Source: Pseudorhizobium pelagicum (GTDB lineage Bacteria; Pseudomonadota; Alphaproteobacteria; Rhizobiales; Rhizobiaceae). Taken from it: a stretch of DNA of 64,000 nucleotides. The stretch is from assembly GCA_000722615.1 (NCBI GenBank), contig JOKI01000002.1, positions 95,114 to 159,113 of the forward strand. Direction: 5' to 3'. The notes beneath the pieces are model-generated. The model saw nothing but the letters and a program-made list of their open reading frames with translations, searched no databases and was not told where the DNA came from. The position numbers and the translations under genes were made by a program. Position 1 is the stretch's first letter. Each line of letters opens with the position of its first letter. Positions 4,398-17,665 of this stretch are shown here, piece by piece.

Positions 4398-5030
4398 ATG
4401 GCCTCGGCAGATGTGCTGATCGCGTTCTTCGTCACGACAGCGATCTTCGCCTATATCCCCGGGCCGGCTATGCTCTACGCCGCGGCGCAGACCGTGGCGC
4501 GCGGACGCCGATCCGGCTTCTCCGCGGTGCTCGGGATCCATCTCGGCTGCTATGTGCATGTGCTGGCGGCGGCGGCCGGGCTGTCGCTCATCTTCCACGC
4601 CGTACCGTTTCTCTACACGGCCGTGAAGCTTGGCGGCGCCGCCTATCTGATCTGGCTCGGCATCGCGCTGTTTCGCAGCCGTGACGGGGATGGCCCGTCT
4701 GGTTCGGCCATCCAGCCGAAGTCTGCCCGGCGGGCGTTCTCAGAAAGCGTCATGGTCGAGGTGCTGAATCCGAAGACGGCGCTGTTCTTCCTCGCCTTCC
4801 TGCCGCAGTTCGTCGAGGCTGGTGCCGGCCTGCCGATCTGGCTGCAGTTCGCGATCCTCGGAACGGTGGTCAACCTGCTGTTTTCCTCGGCCGATATCGT
4901 CTGCGTCGTCTTTGCCGGTGCGCTTACCAATCGGCTGCGCGCCTCGCAGCGCGCGCAGAGGCTCCTGCAGCGGGCCGGCGGCGCGGTTCTGGTCGGGCTC
5001 GGCGCCCATCTTGCCCTGCAGAAAAGCTGA
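4398..5030 (+). CDS. LysE/RhtB-family amino acid exporter
   Basis: A 210-residue inner-membrane protein of the LysE/RhtB translocator family, which export amino acids or related small molecules. The N terminus contains the family signature PGPAMLYAAAQTVARGRRSGF (starting at about residue 21), and hydrophobic segments support five to six transmembrane helices. NPKTALFFLAFLPQFV in the middle is another well-conserved family motif. Substrate cannot be predicted. The gene lies 55 bp after der on the same strand with a weak Shine-Dalgarno sequence (AGGAGCC before ATG), and may be read as the last gene of that transcript. It converges on the glycosyltransferase gene with a 9-bp gap. Confidence 0.88.
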   Translation: MASADVLIAFFVTTAIFAYIPGPAMLYAAAQTVARGRRSGFSAVLGIHLGCYVHVLAAAAGLSLIFHAVPFLYTAVKLGGAAYLIWLGIALFRSRDGDGPSGSAIQPKSARRAFSESVMVEVLNPKTALFFLAFLPQFVEAGAGLPIWLQFAILGTVVNLLFSSADIVCVVFAGALTNRLRASQRAQRLLQRAGGAVLVGLGAHLALQKS

Positions 5031-5039
5031 GGTCTGCGG

Positions 5040-6074
5040 TCACGGAGCCGGCAGGGCGAGGCGCTTCTGCGAGGTGCGGACATTGTCGAGGAACTGGCGC
5101 GAGGCGGCTTCCCAGGTGAACTTGCGGGCAAGCGCCCGGGCGTTGTCGCGGGAGCAGTCGAGGGCTGCCAGGCAGGCCTGCTGCAGGTCCTCGTGCAGCA
5201 CGCCGGCACGGCTGCCGGGCTCGATGATGTCGATCGGGCCGGTCACGGGGTAGGCCGCCACCGGCACGCCGCTCGCCAGCGCTTCCAGGATGGTGTTGCC
5301 GAAGGTGTCGGTGCGCGACGGGAAGACGAAGACGTCTGCCTGGGCATAGATGTCGGCCAGGTCCTTGCCGGTCTGCAGGCCGGTGAAAAGGACGTCCGGG
5401 TAGCGGCGCGCCAGATCGGCCATGGCCGGTCCGTCGCCGACGACCACCTTGGATCCGGGCAGCTTGAGATCGAGGAAGGCGGGCAGGTTCTTTTCTACCG
5501 AGACGCGGCCGACGGTCAGGAAGATCGGGCGCGGCAGGCCGAAGGGCTTTTCCTCCAGGGGCCTCGGATGGAACATGCTCTGGTCGATGCCGCGGCTCCA
5601 GCGCAGGAGGTTGCGCAAGCCGAGCTTGGCCAGTTCGCGCTCGAGGCTGGCGGTCGCGACCATGCAGCCGTTGCCGGCATTGTGGAACCAGCGCACGAAG
5701 GCCTGCATCCAGCGGATCGGGACGGGGAAGCGGGCGGCGACATATTCCGGGAAACGGGTGTGGTAGCTGGTCGAGAAGGGAACCCGGTTCTTGAGGCACC
5801 AGCGCCGTGCCAGAAGCCCGAGCGGCCCTTCGGTGGCGATGTGGACGGCATCCGGCTTGGAGGCCTCGATCTCGCGGGCGACCTGCCAGTAGGTGGCGAC
5901 AGAGAGGCGGATTTCCGGATAGGTGGGGCAGGGAATGTTGCGGAAGGACTGGGGCGTGACCATGGCCACGTCGATCCCCATTCGCTCCAGCTCGCGGTTG
6001 GTGTTCTGGATCGAGCGGACGACGCCATTGACCTGAGGATACCAGGCATCCGTGACGATGGTGATCTTGTTCAT
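5040..6074 (-). CDS. Family 4/1-type glycosyltransferase
   Basis: A 344-residue GT-B glycosyltransferase. The N terminus MNKITIVTDAWYPQVNGVV is characteristic of the MgtA/PimB-like group of GDP-mannose- or UDP-sugar-dependent transferases that glycosylate lipids. The C-terminal nucleotide-sugar-binding domain carries DTFGNTILEALASGVPVAAYP, the E-x7-E type motif. In rhizobia such enzymes can make glycolipids, for example glucuronosyl-diacylglycerol under phosphate limitation, but acceptor and donor here are not determined. The start at 6072-6074 follows a GGGGTGGGACC stretch and begins the conserved domain. A longer in-frame extension has no such support. The gene stands alone, convergent with the exporter. 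Confidence 0.85.
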   Translation of the reverse strand: MNKITIVTDAWYPQVNGVVRSIQNTNRELERMGIDVAMVTPQSFRNIPCPTYPEIRLSVATYWQVAREIEASKPDAVHIATEGPLGLLARRWCLKNRVPFSTSYHTRFPEYVAARFPVPIRWMQAFVRWFHNAGNGCMVATASLERELAKLGLRNLLRWSRGIDQSMFHPRPLEEKPFGLPRPIFLTVGRVSVEKNLPAFLDLKLPGSKVVVGDGPAMADLARRYPDVLFTGLQTGKDLADIYAQADVFVFPSRTDTFGNTILEALASGVPVAAYPVTGPIDIIEPGSRAGVLHEDLQQACLAALDCSRDNARALARKFTWEAASRQFLDNVRTSQKRLALPAP

Positions 6075-15043: not shown

Positions 15044-15081
15044 GTCCTCTCCGAAATCCCTTCGGAGAGTGCGGCTTGGAG

Positions 15082-15312
15082 CTTGCCGAAGCATGCTGCG
15101 TCCGCCGTCGATACCCGGGAGCCACGCCCTGCTCGTCTCCATCCGCGAGAAGGACAACGAGCGACTGCTCTTCGTCTTCAACCTGACCCTCGAGCCACAG
15201 GATTTCGCCTTGCCGGCGAGGATGAGATCCTGCCTGCCGTTTGCGATGCCGGGGTCGAAGTGGAGGAGGGGTGAGGGAGGACCGGCACGGCGGAGATGTC
15301 CGGTATCGGCCC
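15082..15312 (+). pseudogene. Decayed duplicate of the aglA 3' end and flank
   Basis: This segment aligns with the last third of aglA and the 45 bp beyond its stop. First GCCGCCGTCGATAC-type sequence (matching about 8605-8655), then after a gap of about 95 bp the CTGCTCGTC-to-GATGCCGGG block (matching 8750-8880), then after a second gap of about 45 bp the GTGAGG-to-TATCGGCCC block (matching 8944-8983). In the best block the reading frame still encodes SIREKDNERLLFVFNLTLEPQDFALP-like sequence close to aglA, at roughly 84% nucleotide identity by eye. It has no start, two internal deletions and a shifted 3' end, so it is a non-functional remnant. It abuts an inverted remnant of hxlR. Confidence 0.9.
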
Positions 15313-15328
15313 AATGGGGCCTTTTTTT
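15308..15328 (+). terminator. Rho-independent terminator-like hairpin
   Basis: GGCCC (15308-15312), a 4-nt loop AATG, and GGGCC (15317-15321) are followed at once by seven T residues. The short GC-rich stem plus T tract is the classical factor-independent form. It could end read-through from the phosphatase gene. It was created at, or lies exactly on, the junction between the aglA remnant and the inverted hxlR remnant. Confidence 0.65.
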
Positions 15329-15416
15329 GCCAAGCGCGCGATGAGAGAGGGCTCCAGGTCGGTATACTGGTCCATATCTAGGCTATCCAAGGTGCGTAAT
15401 TGATATCAGATATCCA
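15327..15416 (-). repeat. Inverted copy of hxlR promoter and first codons
   Basis: Read on the minus strand, this 90-bp segment repeats 17156-17246 with about seven differences and one missing base, roughly 92% identity. It includes the promoter region and the first codons of hxlR (MDQYTDLE, ATG at 15373-15375). The missing base shifts the frame after codon 8, and similarity stops at about codon 17, where the T tract and aglA remnant begin. The gene copy is therefore dead. The promoter/operator part is intact and points away at the hydrolase gene starting at 15516. That gene would thus carry the same regulatory sequence as the SDR/hxlR pair. Confidence 0.9.
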
Positions 15417-15515
15417 TCGTGTACCTAGTGTCTCATCATCATGAGCAATGTGATGAAGCTGTCGGGAAGAACGAGCGGCACCCGATGCGCACAGAGACAG
15501 TTGAAAGGTAATAGG

Positions 15516-16274
15516 ATGACGATGATGAGACTTCTGGCCAGCGCCCTGTTCGTTCTGTCAGTTTCCGGACCTGCCAGTGCCGATGGGCCTGCCAGTGCCG
15601 GTGCGAGCAATGTTGTGCTGGTGCATGGTGGGTCAACGGACGGCTCGGGATGGAAGGATGTCTTTCATATTCTGCGGGCGAAAGGGTTGGCAGTCACTGT
15701 CGTGGCATTGCCGCATACCAGCCTCGAAGATGATATTGCGGCGACGAGACTGGCTATCGACGTCCAAAGCGGCCCAACCGTTCTGGTTGGCCACAGTTAC
15801 GGTGGCGCCGTTATCACCGAGGCTGGCGTCGCACCCAACGTCAAGGCACTGGTATACGTCGCAGCCCTTCAACCCGATAAGGGCGAAAGTCTGGCTGAGA
15901 TCAGCAGCCGGTTTCCCATGGGCATCGATTCGAAGATGCTCGATGATGAGAGGTTCGTTCCCAGTCCAGCGAGCTATCACGAGATGATCGGCGCGGACCT
16001 TCCGCGCGACATCACCGATTTCATGGCAGCGTCGGCCAAGCCGATGCGGGTGGATACATTCCAGATGCGGTTCCAGAATGCTGCTTGGCATGACAAGCCT
16101 TCGTTCGGCATCGTGACGACCGAAGACAAGGTCCTCTCACCCGACTTTCTGCGGTGGATGTATCAGCGCACAGACACGAAGGTGACGGAAGTGAAGTCGA
16201 GCCATATGGTCTACATGTCTCACCCGCAGGAGACCGCGGATGTCATTCTTGAGGCAGCCAACTCGGTAAAGTGA
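15516..16274 (+). CDS. Secreted alpha/beta hydrolase
   Basis: A 252-residue alpha/beta hydrolase with an N-terminal signal peptide (hydrophobic residues 5-20, cleavage near SADG). The oxyanion-hole motif VVLVHGG (33-39) and nucleophile elbow GHSYGG (92-97, Ser94) are clear, and a C-terminal SSHMVYMSHP segment supplies the probable catalytic His. It resembles the salicylate-esterase/EstA-like group of small hydrolases often seen next to SDR and HxlR genes in soil bacteria. The substrate is unknown. The start is the first ATG of a run (ATGACGATGATG) after AAAGGTAATAGG. The upstream 100 bp contains the duplicated hxlR promoter region, so HxlR control is likely. It converges on the SDR gene. Confidence 0.85.
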   Translation: MTMMRLLASALFVLSVSGPASADGPASAGASNVVLVHGGSTDGSGWKDVFHILRAKGLAVTVVALPHTSLEDDIAATRLAIDVQSGPTVLVGHSYGGAVITEAGVAPNVKALVYVAALQPDKGESLAEISSRFPMGIDSKMLDDERFVPSPASYHEMIGADLPRDITDFMAASAKPMRVDTFQMRFQNAAWHDKPSFGIVTTEDKVLSPDFLRWMYQRTDTKVTEVKSSHMVYMSHPQETADVILEAANSVK

Positions 16275-16336
16275 CGATAGGCGCACGACGGCATTGAACG
16301 GCTTGGATTAGGTCGACCTTTCATCGAGCGCGTGTT

Positions 16337-16373
16337 GCTGTACCCGACCTCCTTGAGATCGGGTACAGCTTTT
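16337..16373. terminator. Terminator between convergent genes
   Basis: GCTGTACCCGA (16337-16347) and TCGGGTACAGC (16359-16369) form a perfect 11-bp stem with an 11-nt loop, followed by TTTT on the plus strand. It lies between the hydrolase gene and the convergent SDR gene and should end the hydrolase transcript. Confidence 0.8.
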
Positions 16374-16383
16374 CGACCGACCC

Positions 16384-17115
16384 TTAGACCTGCCGCAAGC
16401 CGCCGTCGACGCACAGTTCAGCACCGGCGATGTAGCTTGCGTCGTCGCTCAACAAGAACAAGGCGGCCGCAGCCACTTCTGAAGGCCGTGCCATCCGACC
16501 CATCGGAATCGGCGCGACCATCGCCGCGCGCGTGTCTTCCGCGACAGCAGCCATCATGTCCGTATCCGTGGGACCGGGTGCAACGACGTTGACCCGAATA
16601 CCTTTGGGTGCGAGTTCTGCCGTCCAGGTTCTGGCATAGGATCGAACGGCCGCTTTGGTTGCGCAGTAGGTTCCGTAAGCCGGGTAGCCCGCGTTGCCGC
16701 CTATGGACCCGACGAGGACGACCGAACCGCCTTCCGTCATTGCAGGGAGAGCCGCCTGGAGGCCGAACACCATTCCTCGGACGTTGACGTCGAAGTGGCG
16801 GTCGAAATGCTCCGGCGTTATCTCGGCGATCTGCGAAGGTTCCGAAAGACCTGCATTCAGAACGAGCGCGTCGATACGACCGTATGCTCTGCGCACCGTC
16901 TCGACAGCCTCCACCATGTCTTCCGGAGAGCTTGCGTCAGCGGTGATGCCGACCGCGCCATTGCCGATGCCTTTGGCCGCCTGTTCAGCATCTTCACCGC
17001 GACGACTGGTGATGAAGACATTTGCCCCTTCGGCAGAAAGCCGCTCTGCAATCGCCAAGCCGATACCCTTCGCGCCACCGACGACCAAAGCCACTTTGTT
17101 ATTCATGCGAGCCAT
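16384..17115 (-). CDS. Short-chain dehydrogenase/reductase
   Basis: A 243-residue classical SDR oxidoreductase, cytoplasmic, NAD(P)-dependent. The cofactor motif VGGAKGIGLA (12-21) is a variant of TGxxxGxG, NAG is present in VLNAGLS, catalytic Ser lies in LVGSIGG, and the YxxxK pair is in YGTYCATKAA. The C terminus ELCVDGGLRQV is typical of FabG-like members. The substrate is not predictable. The start follows AAAGGATTTACG; MNNKVAL three codons later is an alternative. It is divergent from hxlR over an 81-bp region that belongs to the inverted repeat shared with the hydrolase promoter. Regulator, dehydrogenase and hydrolase therefore look like one HxlR-controlled unit. Confidence 0.88.
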   Translation of the reverse strand: MARMNNKVALVVGGAKGIGLAIAERLSAEGANVFITSRRGEDAEQAAKGIGNGAVGITADASSPEDMVEAVETVRRAYGRIDALVLNAGLSEPSQIAEITPEHFDRHFDVNVRGMVFGLQAALPAMTEGGSVVLVGSIGGNAGYPAYGTYCATKAAVRSYARTWTAELAPKGIRVNVVAPGPTDTDMMAAVAEDTRAAMVAPIPMGRMARPSEVAAAALFLLSDDASYIAGAELCVDGGLRQV

Positions 17116-17155
17116 CGTAAATCCTTTCACTGAATGGTCTCGCCATGATATAACT

Positions 17156-17246
17156 TGGATACCTGATATCAATTACGCACCTGGAATAGCCTAGATATGG
17201 ACCAGTATACTGACCTGGAAGCCCTTTCTCATCGCGCGCTTTGCAA
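17156..17246 (+). repeat. Right copy of the hxlR promoter inverted repeat
   Basis: This 91-bp segment, covering the gap between SDR and hxlR and the first 16 or so codons of hxlR, is repeated in inverse orientation at 15327-15416. It holds palindromic elements such as TTGATATCAG on the opposite strand and GTATAC, plausible HxlR half-sites. The intact copy of the gene is here, so this is the parental or preserved side. Confidence 0.9.
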
Positions 17247-17589
17247 CATGGCGCAGGTTCGCCCGGTGCTCGACAAGATCGCTGACAAATGGACGATCCT
17301 GATACTGACCGTGATCTGTCCGAAACCTGCGCGGTTCAACGAACTGAAGCGGCGTCTCGACGGGATCACGCACAAGGCTCTGGCCGATGCTTTGAAGAGG
17401 CTTGAGCGGAATGGCCTTGTAACGAGAACCGTCCTCCCAACGCAGCCGATCGGCGTGGAATATGCGATAACTCCGCTCGGTCATTCCCTGCGGGAGCCTT
17501 TTGAAGCATTGTGCTTGTGGGCAGCGGCCAACGGCGACAAGGTCGAGGCAGCGGCGCTGCGCTATGACAACACGGACAATCGTCGCTGA
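17197..17589 (+). CDS. HxlR-family transcriptional regulator
   Basis: A 130-residue winged-helix regulator of the HxlR/DUF24 family, many of which sense quinones, aldehydes or disulfide stress through an N-terminal cysteine. The N-terminal Cys16 in RALCNMAQVRPVLDKIADKWT sits where such a sensor Cys is usually found. The core RFNELKRRLDGITHKALADALKRLERNGLVTR and wing PIGVEYAITPLGHSL are family hallmarks. It starts at the ATG in the shared repeat and is divergent from the SDR gene. It probably controls itself, the SDR and, via the second operator copy, the secreted hydrolase. A truncated second copy of its 5' end lies inverted at 15327-15375. Confidence 0.9.
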   Translation: MDQYTDLEALSHRALCNMAQVRPVLDKIADKWTILILTVICPKPARFNELKRRLDGITHKALADALKRLERNGLVTRTVLPTQPIGVEYAITPLGHSLREPFEALCLWAAANGDKVEAAALRYDNTDNRR

Positions 17590-17665
17590 CAGCGTCCCTG
17601 TGTCTCCTCCTGGCGCTTCTGCGCCCTGACGGCAGTCGGACCGAAGCGGACAACCTAGTTTTAGG

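Follow-up and report, generated by a model that had tools for sequence, protein, structure and literature searches.

The HxlR family of winged-helix regulators includes activators as well as repressors, and its known redox-sensing members use an N-terminal cysteine. By sequence, the regulator described here belongs to the same winged-helix family as those with solved structures (YodB, YybR, QsrR, HxlR and YtcD), though a predicted core of some 64 bp in its operator, reaching into its own codons, and invariant cysteines at positions 41 and 106 set it apart. The hydrolase encoded in the same block has its nearest solved relatives in hydroxynitrile lyase, salicylic acid-binding protein 2 (SABP2) and polyneuridine-aldehyde esterase, a weak similarity (best E 1.2e-6), but it is bacterial and has a start that looks, by eye, like a signal peptide.

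The closest described process is horizontal regulatory transfer, or regulatory switching, in which an upstream region is replaced by another, as outlined in PMC5890482, which cites Oren et al. 2014. As described there, a non-homologous upstream region brings a gene under a new regulator while relatives keep other control regions; compared with it, the incoming region here is the regulator's own divergent promoter, predicted to be autoregulated, together with a scrap of the regulator gene, and the gene concerned lies close to the regulator. The locus is a well-marked new case of this known process, and no paper on it was found by title in the open-access literature on HxlR operators or on HxlR with SDR or other oxidoreductases in rhizobia and Agrobacterium.

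We analysed a stretch of 64,000 nucleotides of Pseudorhizobium pelagicum (the window; assembly GCA_000722615.1, contig JOKI01000002.1, forward-strand positions 95,114 to 159,113), and all positions below count from its first letter. We suggest that the block described here (Table 1) probably consists of two HxlR-controlled units joined tail to tail: a divergent SDR<-P->hxlR pair, and a hydrolase gene preceded by an acquired copy (P') of the HxlR operator.

The inverted repeat and the block it encloses

Positions 15327-15416 are an inverse copy of 17156-17246, with 92% identity. When the 62 contigs of the genome (5.13 Mb) were searched with 15327-15420, the query matched two places only, itself and the inverse of 17156-17246 (E = 3.5e-31). 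The repeat holds the core of the SDR-hxlR intergenic region and about 16 hxlR codons; in the left copy one base is missing after codon 8, and an unrelated frame of 65 codons follows. A preliminary description of this DNA had claimed such an inverse copy of about 92% identity with a frameshifted hxlR stub, one arm facing the hydrolase gene and the other the SDR/hxlR pair, and each of these points held, with a similarity far above chance.

Neorhizobium vignae carries the block in the same order and orientation, with 88.6% identity to window positions 15298-17614 over 2339 columns, which rules out an assembly artefact of one genome. Outside this block we detected no similarity between the window and N. 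vignae in the 7 kb compared. The homology reaches about 29 nt beyond the left edge of the repeat, into a flank with a terminator-like hairpin that is no evidence by itself, since the scan count equals that of shuffled sequence. Further left, a frame at 15069-15344, possibly a gene relic, resembles the C-terminus of maltogenic amylase or of a related enzyme (Malt_amylase_C, E 0.0027, below the curated cut-off).

Table 1. Features of the block and its edges, in window positions.
Feature	Positions	Strand	Basis
Flank common to the window and N. vignae, beyond the repeat	15298-15326		homology to L178 starts at 15298
Terminator-like hairpin with T run	15308-15321		scan count 2, shuffled mean 1.9
P', left arm of the repeat: HxlR operator/promoter copy that carries decayed hxlR codons 1 to about 16	15327-15416	-	92% identity to 17156-17246
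Predicted operator core in P', from -50 to +13 (counterpart of the hxlR ATG from 15375)	15362-15425	-	56 of 64 columns invariant in three P'
Proposed hydrolase promoter, TTGATA, 16 nt, TACCTA	15400-15427	+	read by analogy with the SDR promoter; not reported by the scan
Alpha/beta hydrolase (Abhydrolase_6), 252 aa, GHSYGG motif	15516-16274	+	Pfam E 4.9e-23, obtained with the longer frame 15441-16271
Likely joint between hydrolase unit and SDR-hxlR unit	16284-16294		homology ends of L177 and of SDR-hxlR-only loci
Hairpin-type inverted repeat in the gap where the hydrolase and SDR genes converge	16337-16369		inverted-repeat scan
SDR-family oxidoreductase	16384-17115	-	Pfam adh_short_C2, E 9.7e-68
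SDR promoter, TTGATA-16-TATCAT, overlapping the operator core	17145-17172	-	10 of 12 consensus matches
Predicted operator core of P, -50 to +13, common to SDR and hxlR	17147-17210	+	profile of 80 distinct intergenic regions; wobble test
Right arm of the inverted repeat (in P)	17156-17246	+	repeat alignment and genome search
hxlR, intact regulator gene, 130 aa	17197-17589	+	Pfam HxlR, E 1.6e-23

The two units can be told apart by where homology ends: a hydrolase locus with a TetR-type regulator (L177) matches the window up to 16283, and loci that hold the SDR-hxlR pair alone match from 16294 or later, which places the joint. The SDR-hxlR unit alone (about 16294-17616, about 1.33 kb) occurs in differing flanks in many genomes, and in Azospirillum oryzae (L037), a distant alphaproteobacterium, it is 91% identical to window positions 16294-17616. 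Its right end recurs about 25 nt past the hxlR stop. We rejected these ends as those of a mobile element: the flanks do differ, but no clear terminal repeats were seen by eye.

The predicted operator core and its second copy

On the right, P is the promoter that the divergent SDR and hxlR genes share, an arrangement present in 97 of 112 loci (80 distinct sequences), mostly in Alphaproteobacteria (Rhizobiaceae, Methylobacterium, Sphingomonas, Azospirillum and others) and in a few hosts outside them, such as Stenotrophomonas. In a profile of the 80 distinct intergenic regions, the stretch from -50 to about +22, counted from the hxlR ATG, was far more conserved than its surroundings; the hxlR relatives were the best 80 of 244, so this profile and the trees of hxlR and of the control region below do not draw on an even sample. 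Within the gene, the palindrome GTATAC at 17205-17210 falls in hxlR codons 3-5. Codon 4 is TAT, GAT or AAT in 84 distinct hxlR sequences, and all 83 Tyr or Asp codons at this position had T at the wobble position, against 348 of 1061 comparable codons at positions 9-120, a contrast whose p of 3e-38 is overstated because the rows are related. The operator core very likely includes the first hxlR codons, and an operator that runs into the gene has to carry hxlR codons along when it is copied; the hxlR scrap in P' would then be the edge of the acquired piece. The corresponding prediction is that the HxlR site extends into codons 1-5 of its own gene.

We found P' in three independent genomes, namely the window's, N. 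vignae CCBAU 05176 (G054) and Rhizobium sp. Leaf306 (G024), with an intact hxlR nearby in each. The core (-50 to +13) had 56 of 64 columns invariant among the three copies, against 15 of 29 in the part that is hxlR only (+14 to +42; Fisher p = 0.0004), with the boundary of +13 chosen after the copies had been viewed: p was 0.0025 for a boundary at +2 and 0.014 at +16, and at +22, where the conservation of P ends, the contrast was absent (57 of 73 against 14 of 20, p = 0.55). Taking the pairs window-N. vignae, window-Leaf306 and N. vignae-Leaf306 in turn, identity was 88%, 92% and 92% in the core and 79%, 62% and 55% in the scrap, and dS of the adjoining hydrolase was 0.25, 0.37 and 0.29, which suggests that the scrap has been changing roughly as fast as silent sites, or faster, and the core at a lower rate. 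Although no hxlR is left there to be encoded, GTATAC (+8 to +13; window positions 15362-15367) still stands in each of the three P' and in one more copy, a decayed one, in Leaf306. The non-coding gene scrap attached to an acquired operator helps to tell operator positions from coding ones. A hidden short peptide was considered and rejected: the frames that begin at the relic ATG have 65, 24 and 52 residues and are mutually unlike, so a shared peptide does not explain the conservation of P'. A promoter scan reported three sites here, against a mean of 0.9 (sd 0.9) in shuffled sequence, and the -10 element of the proposed hydrolase promoter is weak.

Allowing up to three mismatches, we detected the operator pattern in 18 of 394 genomes of the family and 19 of 57 of the genus (8 genomes are in both sets), and the reversed pattern, used as a control, in none of either set; the pattern misses two diverged sites in Leaf306. 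These hits represent 35 distinct loci, 32 of which are SDR-hxlR pairs. The other three all lie directly upstream of the hydrolase, and among operator sites outside SDR-hxlR pairs this is the only placement. Among plasmids, 34 records match P'; in each of the 33 that are annotated the match falls on a helix-turn-helix gene, and the remaining record is without annotation.

Probable control of the hydrolase, and its relatives

Alignment places the conserved start of the hydrolase at 15516 rather than 15441, and dN/dS among the three P'-linked copies was 0.21-0.26. Its relatives stand beside other regulators. For all nine examined at 58-67% identity the neighbour is a divergently transcribed LysR gene (L023, L144, L145, L146, L147, L172, L173, L174 and L215, the LysR match in L173 being in two pieces), and in both examined at 77-80% (L176, L177) the hydrolase follows an SDR gene as the second gene of an operon, with a TetR gene divergent to it; this classing left out a plasmid relative (H27, 59.6%) and relatives at 39-52%. 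In a hydrolase protein tree built by a quick method from 46 rows, one of them a LysR-type row (G004) without the LysR label, the HxlR-, TetR- and pAt-type hydrolases formed one clade (SH-aLRT 100) with the LysR type outside. The order inside this clade is not resolved, and the three P' hydrolases do not fall on one side of a branch.

Since close relatives adjoin LysR or TetR genes instead, the hydrolase most likely switched regulator by way of an HxlR operator, and its lineage would have passed from a LysR-type neighbour to HxlR. With LysR-, TetR- and HxlR-type neighbours before one hydrolase clade, these loci make up a small natural experiment in regulator change.

We suggest that HxlR would bind P and P' alike, repress the SDR gene, the hydrolase gene and itself, and release on a chemical signal, so that SDR and hydrolase are induced together. 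Shared control of the three genes had been put forward in the preliminary description, and it is, on indirect evidence, the best-supported reading of the sequence: the core of P' is kept, and an intact hxlR lies nearby in 3 of 3 genomes. The sign of HxlR action is uncertain, though the core covers the SDR promoter from -35 to -10 as well as the hxlR start, and this overlap favours repression as the most likely mode. The protein has the winged-helix domain (PF01638, 82.8 bits against a cut-off of 20.8), and its Cys41 (17317-17319) and Cys106 (17512-17514), invariant in 83 of 83 distinct relatives, would fit a thiol-based sensor.

Several hydrolase loci are incomplete. On the pAt plasmids of A. 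tumefaciens (L113, L114) the gene is truncated at its 5' end and is without P', though it is still annotated as an alpha/beta fold hydrolase (4962-5423 in both), and genes around it are annotated as HipA-domain and AbiEii/AbiGii toxin-family. Only the 3' end of the hydrolase is left in L007 and L045. The genome of the window itself contains an apparently decayed fragment of a second hydrolase, about 290 bases with 83% DNA identity (G000 contig C6:98009-98294; L175).

Origin and orientation of the block

The preliminary description had offered two origins for the block, the joining of two HxlR-controlled loci and a partial duplication with inversion, and the first fits better. In a tree of the control region (83 regions but a mere 106 columns; repeated rows from the three focal genomes were omitted, as was the third, decayed copy of Leaf306), the three P' came together on a single branch (bootstrap/SH-aLRT 98/76, not starred) next to the whole group of Rhizobiaceae-type P, and in 200 of 200 bootstrap trees this branch stood apart from their own three P. 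An old origin of P' is thus favoured by the tree. A local partial duplication with inversion, by which P' would have been copied from the window's P as a recent and largely neutral scar, would suit the presence of the same block in inverse orientation at 92% identity. It would also suit the resemblance of the window's P', over -50 to +42, to its own P (88%, against 87% to the P of N. vignae, 85% to the P' of N. vignae and 83% to that of Leaf306) and of its scrap, little changed, to its own hxlR (26 of 29 positions alike, against 23 of 29 for the P' of N. vignae). We nevertheless consider it improbable, because the P' copies group with each other and not with their own P, because at -46 the three P' have C and their P have T, because at -35 the P' agree with the letter prevailing elsewhere, T (0.90), and all three P carry C, and because the P'-hydrolase unit of Leaf306 lies downstream of hxlR, beyond its opposite end compared with the window. 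Partial later exchange between P and P' may have taken place in the window.

The joining of two units could also have begun from an ancestral hxlR<-P'->hydrolase pair, whose redundant hxlR was deleted after it had met the SDR-hxlR unit; this differs from the acquisition of an operator copy only in where the scrap comes from, and we regard it as a real possibility while leaning against it. P' does branch off before the Rhizobiaceae-type P copies diversified, and Leaf306 has a further operator, before a second SDR gene, where hxlR is again reduced to a stub although one intact hxlR lies beside it. Against this, any decayed hxlR beyond the scrap was not detectable, alignments of the flanks of the three P' to the rest of hxlR scoring within dinucleotide shuffles, and an intact hxlR divergent to the hydrolase stood at 0 of 35 operator sites. 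The same count bears on the proposal that the cassette could flip, which was not borne out. Inverted arms about 1.7 kb apart might let the hydrolase-SDR block act as an invertible switch of expression, but the flipped order was seen in 0 of 3 genomes and an hxlR-operator-hydrolase arrangement at none of the 35 sites. Long near-identical arms were not found, the longest identical run measuring 25 nt in the window and, in N. vignae and Leaf306, 22 and 10 nt, nor was a linked recombinase among the six proteins scanned between 14210 and 19457, and both enzyme genes would still have an operator after a flip; we give this reading almost no credence.

Returning to the acquired operator copy, the hxlR tree (56 rows) unites the copies of the window, N. 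vignae, pAt and Azospirillum in a clade whose branch is starred (97/90), and that of Leaf306 goes with L005 in another part of the tree (91/82, not starred). The starred branches force two changes of label, or alternatively one gain and one loss, which is also possible because the Azospirillum locus is without the hydrolase. The hydrolase unit was likely joined to the SDR-hxlR unit twice. We tentatively suggest that the operator-hydrolase unit is portable, the operator and its regulator stub serving as a travelling tag by which a roaming SDR-hxlR cassette gains an accessory enzyme for its regulon, and that it was joined at least two times, on opposite sides, each time within about 1.8 kb of an intact hxlR. 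If so, wherever a captured operator reaches into the coding sequence of its regulator, a stub of that gene at the edge would in general mark the capture.

In Leaf306, three operator copies surround one intact hxlR. The further decayed copy (L067:3165-3235) precedes the second SDR gene and has an hxlR stub with the start codon ATC, and its presence shows that such stubs form more than once. The operator at the intact hxlR differs from the pattern at more than three positions, so regulation there may differ, and the first SDR gene is cut to about 54 codons, its operator having drifted.
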